A DNA stretch of 64,000 nucleotides from Alicyclobacillus fastidiosus (GTDB lineage Bacteria; Bacillota; Bacilli; Alicyclobacillales; Alicyclobacillaceae). The stretch is from assembly GCF_026651875.1 (NCBI RefSeq), contig NZ_CP104067.1, forward strand, positions 3,596,001 through 3,660,000, written 5' to 3'. The notes under the pieces are model-generated. The model did not search any database and had not been told where the DNA came from. It saw only the letters and a program-made list of their open reading frames with translations. Position numbers and translations under genes: made by a program. Positions 30,123-62,863 of this stretch are shown here, in pieces (position 1 is the stretch's first letter; every line of letters starts with the position of its first letter).

Positions 30123-30605
30123 CTATTCAATGCCTAGTAAATCCTGTGCATTCCGAAAACAAATCTTCTCGCGAACCTCATCTTCCATCTCGATGGAGTT
30201 TAGCACTTCGATTGTACTGCGGATGTACCCGGGCCCCTTTTCTGGATCGAAAGGTGAGTGTGAAGCGAAGACCACTTTATCCGCGCCATAAAATTCAAGT
30301 CCACAAACCGTCGCACTGCGTGAGCCAAATACGGCGGTGTCCGCATAAAAGTCCTTAAAGTAGTCCAATGGGCGCCGTTTTAAACGTTTAAGAACCAGTG
30401 TCAAATCCTCATCCGACGTCCGTTTGCCCAGTTGATCCCACCCTGGTCCGACTCGACCTTCAAAGAACGGCACCATCGCACCCATATGATGAGCCAGCAC
30501 TTTGAGGTTGGGCAACCGATCCAGGATACCAGAGAACACCAACCGTGCCATGGCCGCACTCGTCTCATATGGCCATCCAAACGTCCACCGGAACCCCCGG
30601 TCGGA
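30123..30605 (-). pseudogene. Amidohydrolase-2 family protein, C-terminal remnant
   Basis: The reading frame holds only the second half of an ACMSD-like amidohydrolase: TFGWPYETSAAMARLVFSGI, PNLKVLAHHMGAMVPFFEGR (metal-type His), then VVFASHSPFDPEKGPGY and the terminal NAQDLLGIE. An in-frame stop just above 30605 and the loss of the N-terminal HxH metal motif show it is a remnant. Family members decarboxylate or hydrolyse aromatic acids such as resorcylate, so it may be a relic of aromatic metabolism; that link is inference. Confidence 0.82.
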
Positions 30606-43967: not shown

Positions 43968-45320
43968 TTACTCTGCGACATGGGATTGCTCACCATAGTA
44001 GGCTCTCGAGTCTATCTGCTTTCGGTTGAGCAGACCAAGGCTAATGGCAGCGATGAGCGCGACGATTGCGCCAACCATAAAGATACTGGACAGGCTCCAT
44101 TTCAGTGATACCAACAAGCCACCAATGAGAGGGCCAACGATCGAGCCAATCCGACCAAAGCCCAATGCCCAGCTCGATCCGGTTGAACGCACACTAGTTG
44201 GATACACAGTCGCGGCGATAGCGTTCATATTAGACTGAACACCGATGATGAAGAAACCAGCAAAGAACATTACCACTATCAATGCCACGACCGTATGCAT
44301 GTAACCAAGTACCACCAGCAGGATGGCAGCCACTATGGAAGAAGTACCCAGAATAACCTTGGGATTTTGTCGATCACTCATGGATCCGAGCACGATGGTA
44401 CCGACAATGCCGCCCCCCTGCAACATAGAGGCCGCAATGAGTGCTTTTGACATTGGGAATCCTACACCCTTTAATAGAGTTGGCATCCAGTTCGTCAAGA
44501 AGTAAATCAGCAGTAGCGTCATGAAGAATACAATCCACACAAGAATTGTGTTGCGCGCGCGTCCTTCCGTGAAGAGGTACTTGACTGGAAATCCTTTCAG
44601 GTTCGGCTCAGGCACATAGAACTCATCCTGAGCAGTTACCGTCCCCGCGCCAGCGATGCGGTTTAACGGTAAAACGATTCTGGCTTTGTTGCGCCCACGA
44701 ACGACAATAAAACGAATCGACTCTGGCAGTCCAAAAATTGCAATCAGGCCCACAACAATGGGGGCGATTCCACCAAGATAGAATACCGACTCCCACCCCA
44801 AATCTGGAATAATTTGCGTGGAAATAATTCCACCCACGGTTGCTCCGACCGGGAACCCAGTCCACATAATGCTGAGCACTGTTTTTCGGATACGCTGCGG
44901 TGCATACTCTGCCATCAATGCAGTGACAGTCCCCATGCACCCACCGAGACCGAACCCGGTCAAGAATCGTAAAATCAGCAATCCAGTCAAATTTGTTGCA
45001 GTGGCGGTCAACAGCGACAAAACGCCAAAAACAAACACCGAAATTAGAACCGTTGACTTTCGCCCAATCCTGTCTGCGACAGGTCCCGAAATCAGGGCTC
45101 CGATCGCCAAACCAACGAGGCTTGATGAGAAAATTGGAGCAAGTGAAGCGGGTGACGTATGCCAAACCTTTTCAATGGCTGGTGCAACGAACGAGATGAT
45201 TTGAGCATCATAGCCGTCTAATGCCAGCAGTAAAAAGCCAACAATAATCGTGACTGTTTGAAATAGCGTGAATGGACTATCGTCGATCAACTTCGACACA
45301 TTTACATTTCCATTCGACAC
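43968..45320 (-). CDS. MFS aromatic acid:H+ symporter (AAHS/PcaK-like)
   Basis: 450 residues, 12 transmembrane helices. The first helix carries the AAHS signature DGYDAQIISFVAPAI, and the loop 2-3 motif is GPVADRIGRKSTVL; GGCMGTVTALMAEYAPQRIR is motif B/C region of the family. Members import protocatechuate, hydroxybenzoate, phthalate or related acids with protons. Last gene of the putative aromatic operon, 55 bases after the decarboxylase-like gene, so an uptake role for the pathway substrate is likely. Confidence 0.9.
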   Translation of the reverse strand: MSNGNVNVSKLIDDSPFTLFQTVTIIVGFLLLALDGYDAQIISFVAPAIEKVWHTSPASLAPIFSSSLVGLAIGALISGPVADRIGRKSTVLISVFVFGVLSLLTATATNLTGLLILRFLTGFGLGGCMGTVTALMAEYAPQRIRKTVLSIMWTGFPVGATVGGIISTQIIPDLGWESVFYLGGIAPIVVGLIAIFGLPESIRFIVVRGRNKARIVLPLNRIAGAGTVTAQDEFYVPEPNLKGFPVKYLFTEGRARNTILVWIVFFMTLLLIYFLTNWMPTLLKGVGFPMSKALIAASMLQGGGIVGTIVLGSMSDRQNPKVILGTSSIVAAILLVVLGYMHTVVALIVVMFFAGFFIIGVQSNMNAIAATVYPTSVRSTGSSWALGFGRIGSIVGPLIGGLLVSLKWSLSSIFMVGAIVALIAAISLGLLNRKQIDSRAYYGEQSHVAE

Positions 45321-45375
45321 GTTTACCCCTCCACCGTCTCGACCCAGAATAGGGACAAGTGAGTCAGTACAATTC

Positions 45376-46311
45376 TCAGCCCAATGTTACAAAACGGTCT
45401 TCCAGGCTGCGTTCACCACTGATGAAGCCCTGATCACATGCTGCGTTGTACAACGTTTCAAGTACATATTCGTTTTTCGACCAACCATAGCTATTCCAAT
45501 CCACATCGAGCAGCTCTTCTGTCGTCTGCATGTGCAAGTCTGCGAACGGTAGATACATACTCACAGAATTACCTACATCTTTCAGCCCAAGGCACCGAGA
45601 TGCCTCAAACAATTTAATGAGAGCGCCCGCGAGGGAAGGGTATGTCTTAAGTAACTCCGCCTTTATGACAAACACGTGTGTAATGGGTATCACTTGGAGG
45701 TCGTGATAGAAGTTCATTGTTTCCGCCATTGGGTCTGGATGTACAGTTCGAATCCCTCGGCTATCATCCAGTTTCCGTGCGTAGATGAAACAGTCCACTT
45801 CCCTGTTGCGCAGGAGCCGAGGCGCGGATTCCCCTACATATCCCCAGTCGATCTGATAACGTTTCGGATAAGGCACACCTTCGATGCGGTCCAGTTGCAA
45901 CGGACACCACGTGATGAGTCCCGCGTCAATTTTGTAGTAATTCTCCAGTAGCCATCGGTGCCATATGCCCGCCGTGATCCAAAACTGCGGAATGGCTACC
46001 TTTTTTCCTGCCAAATCCCCCGGATTTTGAATACTGGAGTCCACGCGACAGAATTGATAGTGATGAAGAAATTTTCTTGAAAATACCGGTAGCGCCTTCA
46101 AGTCCGTTCGGGCTTCTGATATCTTTAGGAACGTCGCCAAAGAACATTCACCGACGTCATACTCGCCTCCCAGCGTCTTCAGTGTGCATTCGTCAATGGA
46201 TTTTGCCCGCTCTGGATGCAAGTCAAACTCATCCAAAGTGAGGGTTCCTAACAACATCGCTTCTGTGTGCAGATACTGCGTGCATCCGATTCGGATCACG
46301 GGATTCCCCAT
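45376..46311 (-). CDS. 4,5-dihydroxyphthalate decarboxylase-like protein
   Basis: 311 residues of the periplasmic-binding-fold family that includes 4,5-dihydroxyphthalate decarboxylase (Pht5). It begins IRIGCTQYLHTEAMLLGTLT and contains GGEYDVGECSLATFLKISEA, ALPVFSRKFLHHYQFCRVDS, DLAGKKVAIPQFWITAGIWH and the family's ESAPRLLRNREVDCFI. There is no signal peptide, which favours an enzyme over an ABC binding protein. ATG at 46311 behind GGAGGTG, five bases after the dioxygenase gene. In the phthalate pathway this step yields protocatechuate. Confidence 0.8.
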   Translation of the reverse strand: MGNPVIRIGCTQYLHTEAMLLGTLTLDEFDLHPERAKSIDECTLKTLGGEYDVGECSLATFLKISEARTDLKALPVFSRKFLHHYQFCRVDSSIQNPGDLAGKKVAIPQFWITAGIWHRWLLENYYKIDAGLITWCPLQLDRIEGVPYPKRYQIDWGYVGESAPRLLRNREVDCFIYARKLDDSRGIRTVHPDPMAETMNFYHDLQVIPITHVFVIKAELLKTYPSLAGALIKLFEASRCLGLKDVGNSVSMYLPFADLHMQTTEELLDVDWNSYGWSKNEYVLETLYNAACDQGFISGERSLEDRFVTLG

Positions 46312-47037
46312 CTTCTTCACCTCCGCTCTATACCGACAGAGTTGGTCTGTCCCCAAACCTCCACGCTTCCAACCTTCCCCATACGGGGATCCCGATGGCT
46401 TCTCCACATGTCACTCGTTTCCGGTGCACCATCGAGCATCCGCGGCGGCCTCGCACCAGTTTCCGGGAACTCCTCCATGCCAAGGGTGTACTCAATCGTT
46501 AGTTCATCCGGATCAAGGAAATAGACAAAGATGCTGCCAGATGCGTAATGGCGACCCGGACCACAAACCACAGGAACCGCTTCACGAAGTAATCGATTGT
46601 ACCCGATGCCAATGTCATTGATATCAGTCACCATGAACGCTAGGTGCTGTAACCGTAATGACTCGCCTGTTGCAAAGCCAAACGAATGGTGATAAGGACT
46701 TGGGAAACAGCGCATCCACGCAAAAGACAGTTCACCCTGTTGGTTGTACCGCTGATCTGAAGCTTTAAAGTTTAGTACGTCAGTATAGAACGAGTAGTGC
46801 TGCTCAAGATTGGGCACATTCAGAATCACGTGCCCTAACCTGCTCACGTTGACAGGATGCTTTTGTTTCCGGAATGGGCGATGCTGCATTCCGCAGTAGA
46901 ACTCAAATACTACGCCGTTCGGGTCCGCAAACCGAAATGCCTTGCCAATTCGTAACTCAGCGCACTCTGGTGCTAGGTTGTAATAGTGGACACAACGAAT
47001 CGGGAATGTAAGAATAAGGCGATTCGAGGTGAGCCAC

Positions 47038-47325
47038 ATGACACAGAAGTACGACAAGGAATTCAAACTTCATGCAGTGCAATTGGCTTTGGAGAGTGGG
47101 AAAACGACGAGCCAAGTAGCTCGGGAGCTAGGCGTATCACAAAAGACGTTGTATGGCTGGATGTCGAAATATAAGGAGGATCCGTCCGCCCCGTTTGTTG
47201 GGAGTGGGAACCTCAGGTCAGAAGCTCAGACAATTCGTGACTTAGAGCGAGAGCTACGCGATCTTCGAGAGGAGAATGCAATCCTAAAAAAAGCTATGTG
47301 CATCTTCACCAACGACCGGAAGTAA
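47038..47325 (+). CDS. IS3-family OrfA
   Basis: About 95 residues. Helix-turn-helix of the HTH_Tnp_1 type (YDKEFKLHAVQLALESGKTT, SQVARELGVSQKTLYGWMSK) followed by a leucine-zipper-like coiled coil (DLERELRDLREENAILKKAM) that mediates OrfA-OrfB assembly. ATG at 47038 behind GAGGTG. A slippery A7-G tract at 47286-47293 near the end lets ribosomes move -1 into orfB to make the OrfAB transposase. Confidence 0.94.
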   Translation: MTQKYDKEFKLHAVQLALESGKTTSQVARELGVSQKTLYGWMSKYKEDPSAPFVGSGNLRSEAQTIRDLERELRDLREENAILKKAMCIFTNDRK

Positions 47326-48203
47326 GGTATAAATTCATCCACAGACACCGCTCCAAATTTTCGGTTGAGAAGATGTGCAAAGTGTTGGGTGTATCTCGGA
47401 GCGGGTATTATGCCTGGCGTGAACGACCTGAGAGTAAGCGAGCCAAACGTCGGAAGCGAATAACGAAGCGGATTCATCAGATATTCGTGAAATCCCGTCG
47501 TCTTTATGGCAGTCCTAAAATCACGCAGATCCTGCGCCAGGAAGGCGAGCGTGTGGCGCAGAAGACCGTGGCCAAAATCATGCGAGAGAATCAACTGAGG
47601 AGCCGTACCGTTCGCAAGTACAAGGCGACCACGTATTCGAACCACGATTATCCGGTACAGGAGAATGTACTGAATCAAACGTTTGTAGCAGAGCGACCCA
47701 ACCAGGTGTACATGGCAGACATCACCTACATCCCAACGGACGAAGGATGGGTCTACCTGGCTAGCCTAATGGACCTTTATAGCCGTAAGATTGTAGGCTG
47801 GCGTGCGGGAGCACGGATGACGAAAGAGCTGTGCATCAGGGCACTGGAGCAGGCATACGAACGCCAAGACCCAACAGAAACCGTGCTGCATCATTCGGAT
47901 CGTGGGAGCCAATATGCCTCTCATGACTATCAGGACAAGCTGCGAGAATACAAGATGGTCGGTAGCATGAGTCGCAAAGGTAACTGTTTTGATAATGCGT
48001 GCATCGAGTCGTTTCACAGCATTATCAAGCGAGAGCTCGTCTATCTGGAAAAGTTCAAAACGAGGGAACAGGCAATCCGGCGGATCTTCGAATACATCGA
48101 GGTCTGGTATAACCGGGAACGAGTTCACTCATCAATCGGTTTTCTAACACCGGTTGAATTCGAAAGAAGATATTTCCACGCTATAAGAGCTGCAGCAAGC
48201 TGA
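47298..48203 (+). CDS. IS3-family OrfB (DDE transposase)
   Basis: About 301 residues in the -1 frame relative to orfA. N-terminal HTH_21-like region (GVSRSGYYAWRERPESKRAK, RRLYGSPKITQILRQEG), then the rve integrase core: first Asp in YMADITYIPTDEGWVYLASL, second Asp in HHSDRGSQYAS, and Glu in NACIESFHSIIKRELVY. The C-terminal YNRERVHSSIGFLTPVEFER is the family end. All three catalytic residues are present, so the element may be active. Confidence 0.95.
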   Translation: MHLHQRPEVRYKFIHRHRSKFSVEKMCKVLGVSRSGYYAWRERPESKRAKRRKRITKRIHQIFVKSRRLYGSPKITQILRQEGERVAQKTVAKIMRENQLRSRTVRKYKATTYSNHDYPVQENVLNQTFVAERPNQVYMADITYIPTDEGWVYLASLMDLYSRKIVGWRAGARMTKELCIRALEQAYERQDPTETVLHHSDRGSQYASHDYQDKLREYKMVGSMSRKGNCFDNACIESFHSIIKRELVYLEKFKTREQAIRRIFEYIEVWYNRERVHSSIGFLTPVEFERRYFHAIRAAAS

Positions 48204-48680
48204 ACGATAACAGGCATCATATCAGAATATTAAAACTTATAATTTCTCTGTTTTGGGGTGTCCATTCTATTGACTTAATACCACTCCTCCTTGCTGACCT
48301 CAACAAGCGAGTAGCCATTTTCGGATAGATGATTCCAGGACACCTCATACTGGACGATGTCTTCCAATTCCATCGCTATCCGCTTAAGGCCGGGCTGATC
48401 CGATGAATAAAGCACAATGCAGTGGTGTTCGTCGCTGCAGGTTAAATATGCACGTTCCGGCGTTGCCTCATCGACCAGCGTGAATCCGACCATGTCCCGA
48501 TAAAAAAATGCAGACCGTTCGACGTCCCGAACATTCAAAGCCACATAACCAAGCTTTTTATAACGAATCATATGGTCCCCTCCACAAATGCTTCCAAGGA
48601 AGCAAAGCGTGATTTGTAATATTGAAATTCCTTCTCTGAGCTCTTCATCATCTTTCGAAAACGTTTTCAATTACACCAGC

Positions 48681-49007
48681 TCATTCGACAGAAGTTGGTA
48701 AAACTGCATCCACCTTGTCTAGGAACGGGATAATGTGTTTCAACCCCAGGCGTTCCAGCAACCCTTCCACGTCCATATAAGGCAAGGCTGGACGTGGTAC
48801 TGGCGGCGTTTTACCTGCACGAAGTGTCGTGAAGATATATTCAGTCCGTTTTATATCTAGTTCGTCAATTAGAAGAACCGTTGCAGCCCCCTCCACCTGG
48901 CACCCAGGTAGTTCAGGATAGGATACAATACGTACCCAGTCTCCCTTACGAATTACGGATTCGGCGGACAGGATAAACGGTATGGAAAGGTATTCCCTTA
49001 GCGTCAT
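48681..49007 (-). CDS. HicB-like small protein in the aromatic operon
   Basis: 108 residues. The N-terminal half resembles the HicB antitoxin-type fold: FILSAESVIRKGDWVRIVSY, PELPGCQVEGAATVLLIDEL, then IKRTEYIFTTLRAG and a proline-rich PPVPRPALP. The C-terminal LLERLGLKHIIPFLDKV is not part of that fold. There is no HicA-like toxin next to it and no DNA-binding domain. Its ATG overlaps the dehydrogenase stop by four bases, so it is co-translated with pathway enzymes. Role unknown. Confidence 0.7.
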   Translation of the reverse strand: MTLREYLSIPFILSAESVIRKGDWVRIVSYPELPGCQVEGAATVLLIDELDIKRTEYIFTTLRAGKTPPVPRPALPYMDVEGLLERLGLKHIIPFLDKVDAVLPTSVE

Positions 49008-50143
49008 GTCCTGACACTTCCTTGTTCCAAATCGGGAAGTGCTAAGTCTGGCAAAATGGTTACATGTACCGCTTGCTCAGGAAACTCACCGGCTGTAAGC
49101 CGGATAGCGTGATCGACCTTCTCAATCGGAAAATGATGTGTCGACATTTTTCCAACTTGGTACTTACGCGACCCGATCAGGTCCAGTGCCAATTCGACTG
49201 CCGCGTAGCTGTGTCCACGCACACCCCGCAGTGTCAGACACCGTTTCGCCAAGAGTGACACCGGAAACTGCGTCAATCCCTCTGGCGCTCCAGTTGGCAG
49301 TATGAGCTGTCCGTGCTTTTTAAGCAGTTTTACGGCCAGTCCAACCGTCTCATCGCTGCCACGAGCAGTGTCCACCACCATGTCTGCCCCTTCACCGCGT
49401 GTCAACTCATAAACCAGTTCAATGAGATCTCTGTCTACTCCGTGAAATACGACATCCGCCCCGAGTTCTTTCGCCACTTCCAAGCGCTTTGCGTCCCGTT
49501 CCAACCCGACGACGATGATGGTTTTCGCACCTGCCAGCCTCGCTGCGAGGACACACCCCAAACCTTGCTGACCAGGACCCAGGATCACGATAGTCTGTCC
49601 CGGTTGCAATTGGCCCTCACGACAAACCCACTCGATTCCGTTTGAAATCGGTAGCGCAAGAACAGCTTCTATCGCAGGTATCCGTTCATCTACATGATGA
49701 AATACAGTCCGGGGATGCAGGTACAAATATTCGGCATACCCGCCCCACAAACCCGGGCCAATTTGAAGAGGGGTCGATCCAAAGCGTATCGCTGTCGGCG
49801 AGAGCAACGAATCAGTTGCCCAGCACGAACGAAAGTTTCCAGTTCTGCATGCATAACAGTGGCCGCAGGGCAAATACTCTTCCAGCAACACGCGGTCGCC
49901 CTCGGAAACGCCCCACCGATCCCTCGCGATTGACCCCAACGCGACTACACGGCCAAGGTTTTCATGTCCCAAAATTCTGGGTTCCGTAATTTGCGCTCGA
50001 TAATGTCTGACGTCACTGCCACAAACCCCTGCGGCCTCTATCTTCAACAAGCCATCTTCCAATCCAATATCCGGAAGATGAAGATGCTGAATTTCCGTCT
50101 CGCCACTCCCGGTCATCACTGCAGCTCGAACTTCTCGTTCCAT
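49004..50143 (-). CDS. Zinc-dependent alcohol dehydrogenase (MDR family)
   Basis: 379 residues. Catalytic zinc ligands in VCGSDVRHY (Cys41) and GHENLGRVVALG (His60, Glu61); structural zinc cysteines in CGHCYACRTGNFRSC (Cys93, 96, 99, 107). The NAD-binding Rossmann part is VILGPGQQGLGCVLAARLAG. Sorbitol/threonine dehydrogenase-like. In the operon it sits 15 bases after the Rieske gene, where a dihydrodiol or alcohol dehydrogenase would be expected; known phthalate dihydrodiol dehydrogenases are of a different family, so the exact substrate is open. Confidence 0.88.
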   Translation of the reverse strand: MEREVRAAVMTGSGETEIQHLHLPDIGLEDGLLKIEAAGVCGSDVRHYRAQITEPRILGHENLGRVVALGSIARDRWGVSEGDRVLLEEYLPCGHCYACRTGNFRSCWATDSLLSPTAIRFGSTPLQIGPGLWGGYAEYLYLHPRTVFHHVDERIPAIEAVLALPISNGIEWVCREGQLQPGQTIVILGPGQQGLGCVLAARLAGAKTIIVVGLERDAKRLEVAKELGADVVFHGVDRDLIELVYELTRGEGADMVVDTARGSDETVGLAVKLLKKHGQLILPTGAPEGLTQFPVSLLAKRCLTLRGVRGHSYAAVELALDLIGSRKYQVGKMSTHHFPIEKVDHAIRLTAGEFPEQAVHVTILPDLALPDLEQGSVRT

Positions 50144-50158
50144 GAAACCCTCTCCCCA

Positions 50159-51514
50159 TCAAATAAAATGAACCTCATCCTGATTGGCCGATGTGACTTG
50201 CGTTGCTTCGCTTGCCCAATCAATACCGTCAGGTAAACGAATCGATGCTGAACGTATGTGATACGACTGCGGCGCGTAAAGTCCCACCGGAACCACTTGG
50301 CGGTCGCGTAAACCTTTTGCGGCTTTCAACCACAACTGACGCATCCGAATGATGGCCATATCGGCGGTTCCAAGATGCTCCTTTCGTCGATCATAGATGG
50401 GACCCATGGATTCCTGTACGGCTTGGTCCTGCATTGAAATCGTTGGGATTCCAGAGAATGCTTTGGTCGCTTGGGCTTCCCAGTCAATCAAGTAGTCATT
50501 TCCCTTATTGAGTTTCGGTTTCCATCTACTTCCAGGATTTGATGTTTCCTGTATATACATATCAAGTGGTAGGTGGCGTCCGTTTCCCTCACTCGTTCCA
50601 ACGCGGTCGGGGGACCAATAGCGCATATCATCCAGTTCTTCCTCTGTTAAGTCGCGTGTCGGGTGCCATGTAATGGTCCACACCATCGTTGTGTGGTCGT
50701 CAATGGGCACCCATGCGTGGCCACTGACCGGACTGTCTGCGCCATAGGATGGGAGAATCGTATAGAATGGCATTAAGCATTGTGTGATGCGCCAGTAATG
50801 GAAGCCAGGCTCAGCACTTCTCCTAGCGCCAACCATCATGCCATATGGGGTTTCTAACGTTTCGTAGTGTGGGAACTTGTCTCCCGCCATATATTTCATA
50901 CCTTGTTCTCTCGGGCTTCCCGTAAAATCTGTGGAATTTAGACGACTGTGCAAGAACGAAACATGGCTCGAATCAATACCACCCTCATACGCTTGCACCC
51001 AATTACATTCCTGATACCGTTTACTGATATAGCAGCGAGACTGGGGAACAAGGTTCCATTCAAGATCCGGCAACGACGGGCGTTGTTCCGCACACTTGCT
51101 TCCTAAATACGCCCAGACCGTACCATTGCGCTCCACACACGGATAAGCGATTGCTTTGAGTCTGTCCTTGAACGTACTCTGCGGAGGCTCATTGGGCATA
51201 TCTGTAATGTTTCCGTTTACATCATACTTCCAACCGTGATAGACACAGCGCAGGCCACATTCCTCGTTCCGTCCAAAGTACAGGGAGGCACCCCTGTGAG
51301 GACAGTGCTCTTCCAGTAACCCGATAGTCCCGTTGCTGTCCCGAAAGGCAACCAGATCTTCCCCCAACACTCTGACCCGTAATGGGCGCCCATCCTTTTC
51401 TTGTAGTTCGCAAGAGAGTAGGATTGGCAACCAGTATTCCCTCATCACGGCCCCCATTGCGGTTCCTGGACCAACTTGAGTAATGAGCGCGTTATCTTCC
51501 TTTGAAAGCACCAA
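50159..51514 (-). CDS. Rieske non-heme iron oxygenase, alpha subunit
   Basis: 451 residues of the phthalate 4,5-dioxygenase/vanillate demethylase type. Rieske cluster ligands Cys71, His73 (CPHRGASL) and Cys90, His93 (CVYHGW). The mononuclear iron site is in EGGIDSSHVSFLHSRL: Asp181 bridge, His184 and His189; the third ligand would be an Asp near DYLIDWEAQ. This class needs a separate reductase, which is not found in the window. It lies 12 bases after the LysR gene and heads the enzyme genes, so it should catalyse ring hydroxylation or O-demethylation of the imported acid. Confidence 0.93.
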   Translation of the reverse strand: MVLSKEDNALITQVGPGTAMGAVMREYWLPILLSCELQEKDGRPLRVRVLGEDLVAFRDSNGTIGLLEEHCPHRGASLYFGRNEECGLRCVYHGWKYDVNGNITDMPNEPPQSTFKDRLKAIAYPCVERNGTVWAYLGSKCAEQRPSLPDLEWNLVPQSRCYISKRYQECNWVQAYEGGIDSSHVSFLHSRLNSTDFTGSPREQGMKYMAGDKFPHYETLETPYGMMVGARRSAEPGFHYWRITQCLMPFYTILPSYGADSPVSGHAWVPIDDHTTMVWTITWHPTRDLTEEELDDMRYWSPDRVGTSEGNGRHLPLDMYIQETSNPGSRWKPKLNKGNDYLIDWEAQATKAFSGIPTISMQDQAVQESMGPIYDRRKEHLGTADMAIIRMRQLWLKAAKGLRDRQVVPVGLYAPQSYHIRSASIRLPDGIDWASEATQVTSANQDEVHFI

Positions 51515-51526
51515 AACCGACCTCCA

Positions 51527-52480
51527 TCATAAGGTTCGTATGCTGTATGGATGCCACTCGTCGAAATATTCAGACACATCTTTGCGCATCACTTCTATCA
51601 ATAAATAAGAAGCCTTAGACTTTAGATAAATGATCGACATAACCGTCTGAATCTCTGACAGTTGCCGAACCCGCACCGCGACCAATGACCCTTCTTTTAA
51701 TTCTCGCTGAACACCTATAAACGGTAGCAGACTGACAAAGGATGACTCGATTACCATCACCTTAGCAGCTTCCAGTTGGTTCAATTCCGCAACCACGTTC
51801 GGAATAGCGTGGTAGCTTGAGAAAATTCGCTGAATTCCTCGCCAGCCGTCTGTTGACTGTTCGTACGTGACCAACGGTTCTCGCAATATTTCTTGTATCT
51901 CAATTTCTTCACACTCGGCCAACCGATGTTGAGGGCTGCAAACCAATACCCAAGGTGTCACGTGGGCACAATCCTGTTGAATCTGTTGGTGTGACACATC
52001 TGATGCAATTAGTCCAACGTCTATTTCATTGCCGAGAACCATATCGCGGATGGCTTTGGTGTTGCCGTGAACGACATGGAACTCCACTTCCGGATTCCCA
52101 CTGCGAACCGTTCCTAAAATCTTTGGGAGTACATTCACAGACCAAGTCGGTGTAGCACCAATCCGGATCTTGCCTTCAGCCTTTTTCTTAATGCTCCGTA
52201 CCTTATTCTCAGCTTCTTGCATCAGTTGTATCATCTGCCTTGCGTAGGGCAGGAACTCCCTCCCTTCCTGTGTCAAGTGAATTCGATGATTTTTGTTTCG
52301 AATAAACAGTGTAACGCCAAGTCGCTCTTCCAACCGCTTAATTCGCGCTGTAACGGACGGTTGCCGCAAGTTCATGGCGTGCGCTGTCTTCACAAAACTG
52401 AGCGTAGAAGCGACCGAGAGAAAGGTTGCGGTGTTCTCCAAATCATCCAAGATTTCACCACATTTCTTATTCGATTTCAT
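51527..52480 (-). CDS. LysR family regulator of the aromatic cluster
   Basis: 317 residues with an N-terminal helix-turn-helix (TATFLSVASTLSFVKTAHAM, NLRQPSVTARIKRLEERLGV) and effector domain (IRIGATPTWSVNVLPKILGT). It is the first gene in line with the oxygenase and downstream genes, not divergent as usual, so it is probably co-transcribed with them and regulates its own operon. The 274-base region upstream has no gene; I see no clear operator there. Confidence 0.9.
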   Translation of the reverse strand: MKSNKKCGEILDDLENTATFLSVASTLSFVKTAHAMNLRQPSVTARIKRLEERLGVTLFIRNKNHRIHLTQEGREFLPYARQMIQLMQEAENKVRSIKKKAEGKIRIGATPTWSVNVLPKILGTVRSGNPEVEFHVVHGNTKAIRDMVLGNEIDVGLIASDVSHQQIQQDCAHVTPWVLVCSPQHRLAECEEIEIQEILREPLVTYEQSTDGWRGIQRIFSSYHAIPNVVAELNQLEAAKVMVIESSFVSLLPFIGVQRELKEGSLVAVRVRQLSEIQTVMSIIYLKSKASYLLIEVMRKDVSEYFDEWHPYSIRTL

Positions 52481-61621: not shown

Positions 61622-62863
61622 ATGAGCATTTGCTTGTATGTCGGTGTTGATCTTGGTCTAAACAATTTCGTCGTCTGTACAGTAAACGATCAGGGAAAGC
61701 AAATCTCTGGATCCTCCAAGTTCAGCAATGACCTTGTTGGGGCTGAGCGCTTCGTGGACAATCTTCTGGACGTCGCTCGGTCCGCAGGTGCCAAGCAACT
61801 GAAAATCGGTATGGAAGCGACCAATCTGTACTGGTGGCATCTACATGAGTACCTGGTACAAAACGATGAATTGCAGTCGTTGGAGATGGAGGTCTACGTG
61901 CTGAATCCGTCCTTGGTCGACGGGTTCAAGAGGGCATACACCAAGCTACCTAAGACGGACGCTGTTGACGCCTGGGTAATTGCTGATCGGCTGCGTTTCG
62001 GTGGGTTGAGACCCACGCCACCACAGGATCCGCGCTATGCTGCTCTGCAACGGCTCACGCGCTTCCGTTATCACTTGGTCCAAGACATCACGCGGGAAAA
62101 GAATCGTGCACTCGGAATCATCTTCATGAAGTTCGCATCGATGGCAGACGGAAAACAAAACCCGTTCAGCGACACATTTGGAAAGGCAGCTACCTCCGTG
62201 CTCTCTGAGCTTGCGCCGGACGAGATTGCTGAACAGCCAATTGAAGATCTCGCCCAGTTTATTGCGGAACGCAGCAATAACCGTTTGCGGAATCCGAATG
62301 AACTTGCTCAGGAGCTCCGAAAGTTGGCCAGGCGCTCATATCGGCTGAATCCGCACATGGAAGATGCCATTGACGTCACCCTGTCCATGATGCTCGGCAA
62401 CATTCAGTTCCTTGAGAAGCAACTTAAGGAACTCGACAAGGTCATTGCTCGTCACCTAGCCGCTATACCACAGACATTGGATACCATACCTGGAATCGGT
62501 CCTGTCATCACGGCTGGCATTGTGGCTGAAATTGGTGACATATCGCGCTTTAACAATCAAGCTGCTCTCGCAAAATTCGCAGGCCTCACCTGGTCTGTGC
62601 ACCAATCTAGCAGTTTTCGGGCCGACGAGACCAAATTGACGAAGGCTGGCAATTATTATTTGCGATATTATCTCATCGAAGCAGCGAACTCGTTGCGGGT
62701 ACACAACAAGGAGTACGCTGAATTTTGCCGTAGGAAGTATCGTGAAGCCACGAAGCACCATCACAAGCGAGGACTTGTGCTCTCAGCCCGTAAATTTGTG
62801 CGTCTGGTCTTTGTACTGCTGAGCAAAGGCCAAATCTATAACGCAAGGAAGGTGGTATCTTAG
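61622..62863 (+). CDS. IS110-family transposase (DEDD)
   Basis: 413 residues. N-terminal RuvC-like DEDD domain: Asp10 (VGVDLGLNNFVV), Glu65 (IGMEATNLYWWHL), Asp113 and Asp116 (LPKTDAVDAWVIADRL). The C-terminal Transposase_20 part has DTIPGIGPVITAGIVAEIGD, FAGLTWSVHQSSSF with the candidate catalytic Ser at 329-331, and TKAGNYYLRYYLIEAA. All catalytic positions are present and the frame is intact. AAGGAGG precedes the ATG. Transcribed against the group II intron, which it adjoins. Confidence 0.95.
   Translation: MSICLYVGVDLGLNNFVVCTVNDQGKQISGSSKFSNDLVGAERFVDNLLDVARSAGAKQLKIGMEATNLYWWHLHEYLVQNDELQSLEMEVYVLNPSLVDGFKRAYTKLPKTDAVDAWVIADRLRFGGLRPTPPQDPRYAALQRLTRFRYHLVQDITREKNRALGIIFMKFASMADGKQNPFSDTFGKAATSVLSELAPDEIAEQPIEDLAQFIAERSNNRLRNPNELAQELRKLARRSYRLNPHMEDAIDVTLSMMLGNIQFLEKQLKELDKVIARHLAAIPQTLDTIPGIGPVITAGIVAEIGDISRFNNQAALAKFAGLTWSVHQSSSFRADETKLTKAGNYYLRYYLIEAANSLRVHNKEYAEFCRRKYREATKHHHKRGLVLSARKFVRLVFVLLSKGQIYNARKVVS

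Follow-up and report, generated by a model that had tools for sequence, protein, structure and literature searches.

The window analysed here is a 64,000-nt stretch of the Alicyclobacillus fastidiosus genome (contig NZ_CP104067.1, positions 3,596,001 to 3,660,000), which carries at 43968-52480 on the minus strand an operon of seven genes encoding, in the order of transcription, a LysR-type regulator, a Rieske oxygenase, a zinc-dependent MDR dehydrogenase, a 108-residue protein, a VOC extradiol dioxygenase (in two pieces), a protein resembling 4,5-dihydroxyphthalate decarboxylase (DHPD-like) and an MFS importer. Several described systems resemble it in part. With the classical phthalate 4,5-dioxygenase (pht) pathway it shares a Rieske oxygenase, a dehydrogenase and a DHPD-family protein; in contrast to its own MDR enzyme, however, the dehydrogenase of a classical-type cluster in the same genome (L031) is of the Gfo/Idh/MocA kind, and the window operon further differs in lacking the characteristic residues of phthalate dioxygenase (PDO) and in having a DHPD-like protein of what appears to be another subfamily. 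The pra operon for protocatechuate 2,3-cleavage, of which a gene order is reportedly known from Paenibacillus JJ-1b, would take the final semialdehyde; in the present genome its ring cleaver is LigB-type and its last gene encodes an Amidohydro_2 protein. Clusters on actinobacterial plasmids (Rhodococcus rhodochrous BX2, Arthrobacter crystallopoietes pLDW-10 and R. fascians pGS01) encode Rieske and Zn-MDR proteins that are 49-52% and 30-35% identical, respectively, to those of the window; unlike the window operon they have a PDR/VanB reductase and a hypothetical protein of ~170 residues without detectable similarity to the 108-residue protein, and no VOC or DHPD-family match within 9 kb.

The Comamonas iph system, with the isophthalate dioxygenase (IPDO) of C. 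testosteroni KF1 (PDB 9INA/9IOY; described in PMC12445078), is alike in having a LigXa-type Rieske enzyme with R234, H257 and V178 and a dehydrogenase gene in the cluster. The window operon differs from it by an MDR dehydrogenase (SDR in C. endophytica), R in place of I294, a LysR instead of an IclR regulator, the absence of a VanB-type reductase gene, the added VOC and DHPD-like genes, and a Rieske protein of a different clade. Finally, the o-phthalate 2,3-dioxygenase (opa) pathway of Pseudomonas PTH10 resembles the route proposed below in its sequence of dihydroxylation, dehydrogenation, type I extradiol cleavage and decarboxylation to hydroxymuconate semialdehyde, but it employs (PMC6362003) an alpha/beta oxygenase with ferredoxin and reductase, the BenD-like OpaB, and a decarboxylase (OpaD) of the metallo-dependent hydrolase superfamily.

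We report that the window operon is probably for an aromatic carboxylate, and we tentatively read it as a modular gateway for an isophthalate-like acid that is decaying in this strain, with a probability of roughly 0.43. Gene content, synteny, family matches, conserved pocket residues, the shuffling of modules among relatives and the break caused by an insertion sequence are the observations from which we infer the substrate, each reaction and the order of the steps. No description of this gene set turned up in open-access literature searches, which cover only what they returned.

Gene content and relatives

The sequence-only reading of the window had named this gene set in this order, and all the genes are present on the minus strand where it had placed them (Table 1); it was likewise right that the dehydrogenase is of the zinc-MDR kind (Pfam) and that the operon has no reductase gene. 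Its assignment of the importer to the aromatic acid:H+ symporters agrees with the best model, TIGR00895 (aromatic acid/H+ symport), although the score of 375.9 bits lies under the curated cut-off of 418.55. The VOC dioxygenase that it had recognised does have a Glyoxalase domain in both pieces, but a 1,314-bp element sits inside the gene. The DHPD-like and 108-residue proteins remained without a match in Pfam and NCBIfam at E ≤ 0.001.

The same gene set with an intact dioxygenase, which the sequence-only reading had suggested looking for in relatives, was found in A. suci (genome G007), where the seven genes form one same-strand run in the same order, the VOC gene is whole and the products are 62-84% identical to those of the window (LysR 72%, Rieske 80%, MDR 80%, small protein 62%, VOC 82-84%, DHPD-like 72%, importer 74%; blastp). 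Since A. suci keeps all seven in the same order, the set is more than a chance assembly. Of 59 genomes from the order, three have a relative of the VOC protein at E ≤ 1e-40, namely the window's own genome (G000), A. suci and a third genome (G001), and among 101 relatives the same three have close relatives of the DHPD-like protein (≥61% identity), 12 more having distant ones only. A scan of GTDB contigs with two peptide patterns from the DHPD-like alignment, which is not a census, returned one locus (A. suci), and in an even sample of 398 genomes of the phylum the single match at E ≤ 1e-40 came from the genome of the window itself.

Parts of the operon recur in other arrangements. In G001 the layout is LysR - VOC - DHPD-like - alpha/beta ring-hydroxylating oxygenase - class II aldolase family protein, with a distant Rieske gene (29%) upstream and no close Rieske or MDR ortholog. 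A genome of another genus in the same family (G038) has Rieske (79%) - MDR (80%) - small protein - importer - LysR - alpha/beta oxygenase - Amidohydro_2 protein, and its alpha/beta oxygenase is 80% identical to that of G001. The locus thus consists of modules that can be exchanged, and in these two genomes the halves of the operon are found separately. This weakens the linearity of the step-by-step pathway that had been read from the gene order, as G038 has the Rieske-MDR half without close VOC or DHPD-like genes and G001 has the VOC and DHPD-like genes without close Rieske or MDR genes. The mosaic of four genomes offers a small natural series for assigning modules to steps. A class II aldolase gene also ends an operon of Arthrobacter Sphe3 that we take to be pht-like, its product being 30% identical to the G001 protein. 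PMC6362003 names two enzymes that decarboxylate 3-carboxy-2-hydroxymuconate semialdehyde, one a class II aldolase and the other a metallo-dependent hydrolase. The class II aldolase gene of G001 may have a role as a decarboxylase or a pht-like function.

Table 1. Features of the operon and related features, with positions in the window
Feature	Position	Strand	Evidence
LysR-type regulator	51527..52480	-	Pfam HTH_1 and LysR_substrate; blastp orthologs G007 72%, G001 65%, G038 61%
LigXa-type Rieske oxygenase alpha subunit	50159..51514	-	Pfam Rieske and LigXa_C; PDB matches, residue tables, tree
Zn-dependent MDR dehydrogenase, proposed dihydrodiol dehydrogenase	49004..50143	-	Pfam ADH_N and ADH_zinc_N
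Small HicB-like protein (108 aa), proposed Rieske companion	48681..49007	-	Family alignment
VOC extradiol dioxygenase, 5' part of interrupted gene	48282..48571	-	Pfam Glyoxalase; 82% to intact G007 protein
Insertion sequence (ORFs 47029-47325 and 47298-48203)	46968..48281	+	HTH_Tnp_1 and rve domains
VOC extradiol dioxygenase, 3' part of interrupted gene	46317..46967	-	Pfam Glyoxalase; 84% to intact G007 protein
DHPD-like protein (311 aa), proposed decarboxylase of separate subfamily	45376..46311	-	Match to 9jp7
MFS importer, aromatic acid:H+ symporter kind	43968..45320	-	Pfam MFS; TIGR00895 375.9 bits; 72% to G038 ortholog
Amidohydrolase remnant	30126..30587	-	tblastn; Pfam Amidohydro_2

The Rieske oxygenase

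The best matches of the Rieske protein among solved structures are 7fhr (394 bits), 9ina (358 bits) and 7fjl (241 bits), the last of which we take to be the PDO of KF1; the residue numbering used for PDO agrees with the 7fjl chain. Pocket residues were read from an alignment of 19 sequences, and a second alignment covered 49 Rieske genes. The window protein keeps G172, V178, R234 and H257 of IPDO, with S replacing T175, and has V and Y at the positions of S182 and R207 of PDO. According to PMC12445078, R234 and H257 bind the isophthalate carboxylates in IPDO, and S182 and R207 of PDO serve the carboxylates of phthalate. Judged from the alignment, the pocket thus looks isophthalate-like, yet the tree does not place the protein beside IPDO: the window, A. 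suci and G038 proteins, which have in common a 10-residue insertion just before position 294, form a clade (support 1.0) that is sister to a clade called GN (0.83).

Genes of the DHPD family (DHPD or DHPD-like) on the same strand within 9 kb accompany 0 of 11 IPDO-like, 2 of 3 window-type, 5 of 13 TSRRMH and 0 of 7 GN-type Rieske genes, counts that come from related loci with some flanks cut and that cover the 34 of 49 Rieske genes assigned to a group; at one IPDO-like locus the opposite strand carries a DHPD gene at a distance of 8.8 kb. In other Bacilli, five loci (L036, L038, L133, L040 and L136) have a TSRRMH-type Rieske gene, an MDR gene and a DHPD gene on one strand, with a cupin protein in the first three. 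The idea that an arginine at position 294 goes with a DHPD-family gene is not relied on, the second alignment putting glycine there in the TSRRMH group.

The MDR dehydrogenase

The strongest matches of the dehydrogenase are inosose, polyol and threonine dehydrogenases, which act on secondary alcohols, and by this comparison a vicinal diol would fit as substrate. Zn-MDR genes adjoin LigXa-type Rieske genes in three phyla, in loci of Bacilli, actinobacteria and proteobacteria. Twenty plasmid records gave an MDR match at E ≤ 1e-40, and at least 14 of them have a Rieske match within 9 kb when the best 40 of 608 Rieske records are considered; Rhodococcus records that share one Rieske score account for five of the 14. 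On R. fascians pGS01 the neighbours of the Rieske and MDR genes are an alpha/beta oxygenase and a PdxA-type dehydrogenase, a pairing known from terephthalate operons, and in the IPDO-like cluster of Comamonas endophytica an SDR occupies the MDR slot.

When 34 Rieske genes were sorted into four groups, an MDR gene was located within 9 kb, in the same orientation, for 10 of 11 IPDO-like, 3 of 3 window-type, 10 of 13 TSRRMH and 0 of 7 GN-type genes, the loci having been collected through Rieske or DHPD searches, not at random, and the 15 of 49 genes in none of the four groups being left out. In a Mantel test on 12 Rieske-MDR pairs, the distances of the two proteins were correlated (r 0.56, p 0.0008; 0.52 and 0.0009 without the A. 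suci pair). If the MDR enzyme is a dihydrodiol dehydrogenase, a further protein family would be added for that step, and 'alcohol dehydrogenase' genes that stand unassigned beside Rieske oxygenases in Bacilli, actinobacteria and proteobacteria would become nameable.

The VOC and DHPD-like proteins and the pra-type operon

The intact VOC protein of A. suci has PF00903 in two stretches, and H158, H214 and E265, presumably the 2-His-1-Glu iron ligands, are invariant in the two intact VOC proteins aligned. Elsewhere, the genome has a pra-type operon (L089 5198-14486; G000:C1, about 2029-2038 kb) in which the best matches are 4-hydroxybenzoate 3-monooxygenase, IclR, LigB-type dioxygenase, hydroxymuconic semialdehyde dehydrogenase, hydratase, acetaldehyde dehydrogenase, aldolase, oxalocrotonate decarboxylase, tautomerase and an Amidohydro_2 protein. 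Scores exceed the curated cut-offs for the acetaldehyde dehydrogenase and the aldolase and fall short of them for the semialdehyde dehydrogenase, the hydratase and the oxalocrotonate decarboxylase, and the gene order matches what we take to be the order praABEGFDCH. Of 61 relatives, 20 possess the LigB-type gene (in the genus, 14 of the 15 genomes searched), and G038 has it as well. Given this separate operon the VOC enzyme should not be needed for protocatechuate, and the presence of a second ring cleaver, of the VOC type, is accordingly a pointer to a different catechol.

The only significant PDB match of the DHPD-like protein is the solved 4,5-dihydroxyphthalate decarboxylase 9jp7 (26% identity; E 1.3e-20 with the single sequence and 3.3e-27 with a three-sequence profile). 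A relationship to transport binding proteins, which the sequence-only reading had held up as the outcome that would count against a decarboxylase, was rejected, as a taurine-binding protein reached E 0.14 against 3.3e-27 for 9jp7; the N-terminus has no obvious signal peptide by eye. Identities are 61-72% among the window, A. suci and G001 proteins and 23-30% between these three and nine sequences of the DHPD group, eight of which are 42-47% identical to the ninth, 9jp7. Across the trio and the nine, 36 columns are invariant and equal and 31 are invariant within each group but different between them, and on these alignments the DHPD-like protein appears to belong to a subfamily separate from DHPD. 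AlphaFold models were too poor to use (mean pLDDT 40, and 55 for the small protein). The genome has in addition a cluster (L031; C1, about 5.32-5.34 Mb) with genes for a Rieske protein, a Gfo/Idh/MocA dehydrogenase, a DHPD that is 43% identical to 9jp7, a class II aldolase, a LysR and a transporter-like ORF, which we take to match the classical phthalate layout; the window operon is therefore probably a different pathway.

The insertion element and apparent decay of the locus

The VOC gene is split at 46968-48281 by an element with two open reading frames, the layout of which we take to be IS3-like. The genome holds nine full-length near-identical copies, this one included, and the assigned ends are supported by the fact that all nine match over 1-1314; because the copies are near-identical, the break looks recent. 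A 5-bp direct repeat, CACTC, borders the element at 46963-46967 and 48282-48286. When repeats were compared by the empty site that they leave, CACTC gave the top alignment score to the whole A. suci VOC protein among the pairs tried (1390, frame 344), and the alternative repeat TAATA likewise leaves an open frame (score 1372). Some 13 kb from the operon, a tblastn search of the window identified the C-terminal 154 of 353 residues of an amidohydrolase of the G038 type at 86% identity. With one gene interrupted and another left as a fragment, the locus appears to be decaying in this strain, and the break in the VOC gene should stop the proposed route here unless another enzyme substitutes. The window also has an IS110-family transposase gene at 61622-62863.

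Proposed route and alternatives

In the route that we propose, the importer would take the acid in, the Rieske enzyme would cis-dihydroxylate it and the Zn-MDR enzyme would oxidise the dihydrodiol, perhaps with release of CO2, to a catechol that bears a carboxylate. The VOC enzyme would then cleave the ring of this catechol in the extradiol manner and the DHPD-like protein would remove a carboxylate, before or after ring cleavage, with the product entering the separate pra-type lower pathway and the LysR protein controlling the whole set. The intact A. suci set, the IPDO-like pocket residues, the recurring association of Rieske and MDR genes, the VOC iron-site residues and a pra-type operon that could supply the later steps are in favour of this reading.

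Other observations weigh against it. Several concern the Rieske protein, of which the top solved match, 7fhr, carries the name putative phthalate 4,5-dioxygenase and has both R234 and H257 as well as R at PDO position 207, so that R234 and H257 alone do not decide the substrate. Moreover, F333, I246 and F249 of IPDO are replaced by I, L and Y, and in a loop where the alignment is uncertain the window, A. suci and G038 proteins have R at position 294 (I in IPDO) in addition to the Y at the F249 position. In the tree, the window and GN clades join the loci L053/L054 with a 7fhr-type pocket (0.82) and fall outside the clade of IPDO and IPDO-like proteins (0.985). Our confidence in the proposed reading is lowered because of the 7fhr residues and the tree placement. 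Furthermore, the Mantel correlation and the group counts may in part be explained by shared ancestry; G038 keeps the Rieske, MDR, small-protein and importer genes together, has no VOC match at E ≤ 1e-40, and has a sole DHPD match (27%) elsewhere; and the operon is without a reductase gene, where a search of the genome with one VanB-type reductase, the only reductase kind searched for, gave three partial matches (best E 1.5e-10). A dicluster ferredoxin gene that lies right after another Rieske-MDR pair of this genome (L034 12024-12302) is a lead to a possible electron donor.

Position 294 corresponds, according to PMC12445078, to the site of R309 in terephthalate dioxygenase, a carboxylate-binding arginine. 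Going by this alignment, the arginine of the window protein is a hint that the substrate may bear one more acidic or polar group, as trimellitate does.

It is also conceivable, if somewhat unlikely, that the Rieske and MDR enzymes alone turn isophthalate or an analogue into protocatechuate for the pra-type operon, with decarboxylation during the dehydrogenation, and that the VOC and DHPD-like genes constitute a second module under the same regulator. The IPDO-like pocket residues would suit this explanation, as would G038, which has the Rieske-MDR genes without close VOC or DHPD-like genes and with a pra-type LigB gene, the Rieske-MDR loci L032 of the same genome and L047, L049 and L056 of actinobacteria, where no DHPD-family match occurs within 9 kb, and the C. 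endophytica cluster with its SDR. It accounts less well for the single same-strand run of all seven genes in A. suci, for an R294 unlike IPDO and for a tree that separates the window clade from IPDO.

A linear phthalate-like route, with a 4,5-dihydroxyphthalate decarboxylase step to protocatechuate and subsequent cleavage by the VOC enzyme, agrees with the gene order and family calls, the name of 7fhr and the 36 columns common to the DHPD-like trio and the nine DHPD-group sequences. A phthalate route ending in protocatechuate, which had been the first interpretation of the locus, does not hold up well, however, when set against the V and Y in place of S182 and R207 of PDO, the 31 columns that differ between the DHPD groups, the 26% identity to 9jp7 as compared with 43% for the L031 relative in a classical-type cluster elsewhere, and the LigB-type dioxygenase that the pra-type operon already provides; we regard it as improbable. 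Decidedly unlikely, too, is that the locus in this strain is a mere decaying remnant without current function: the VOC gene is broken by an element found in nine copies and the amidohydrolase is truncated, but the other six genes are still open and 62-80% identical to those of A. suci. An O-demethylase acting on a methoxylated aromatic acid, with the MDR enzyme clearing formaldehyde, is very improbable, for the LigXa_C domain (named after an oxygenase that we take to be an O-demethylase) and a 116-bit match of the MDR enzyme to the mycothiol-dependent formaldehyde dehydrogenase model (cut-off 512.9) are outweighed by its stronger matches to dehydrogenases of secondary alcohols and by the three strongest Rieske matches, all dioxygenases or so named (7fjl as assumed above).

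The small HicB-like protein

With at most 12 candidates scored per genome, the family of the 108-residue protein gave seven matches above 100 bits, in 6 of 398 genomes of the class, and 14 others at 21-26 bits. All seven strong matches are near a Rieske gene (within the 1.5-kb flank for six, the Rieske gene of the seventh beginning 1.5 kb away), as opposed to none of the 14 weak ones with such a gene in the flank; the strong matches are confined to two sister Rieske clades, and one inherited association therefore suffices as explanation. A relative (L127) matches HicB_lk_antitox with E 1.6e-4 and 22.3 bits, below the cut-off of 27, and the window protein itself gave no match to a HicB model. 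The neighbours of its gene are the MDR and VOC genes, and no HicA profile search was made. The ~170-residue actinobacterial protein encoded beside the MDR gene was rejected as a relative, there being no blastp match at E ≤ 10 among the eight proteins compared.

That the small protein is a companion of the Rieske enzyme is our guess. A bolder proposal, unlikely when taken as a whole, is that the mosaic degrades an acid with an isophthalate core and a third acidic group (e.g. trimellitate) along a route for which no description turned up, by means of a Zn-MDR dihydrodiol dehydrogenase, a decarboxylase of a new DHPD subfamily and a HicB-like protein that has no toxin gene next to it and would now be dedicated to one lineage of Rieske oxygenases as a subunit, an assembly factor or a regulator. 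A HicB-like companion, if there is one, would represent a new use of an antitoxin-like protein.

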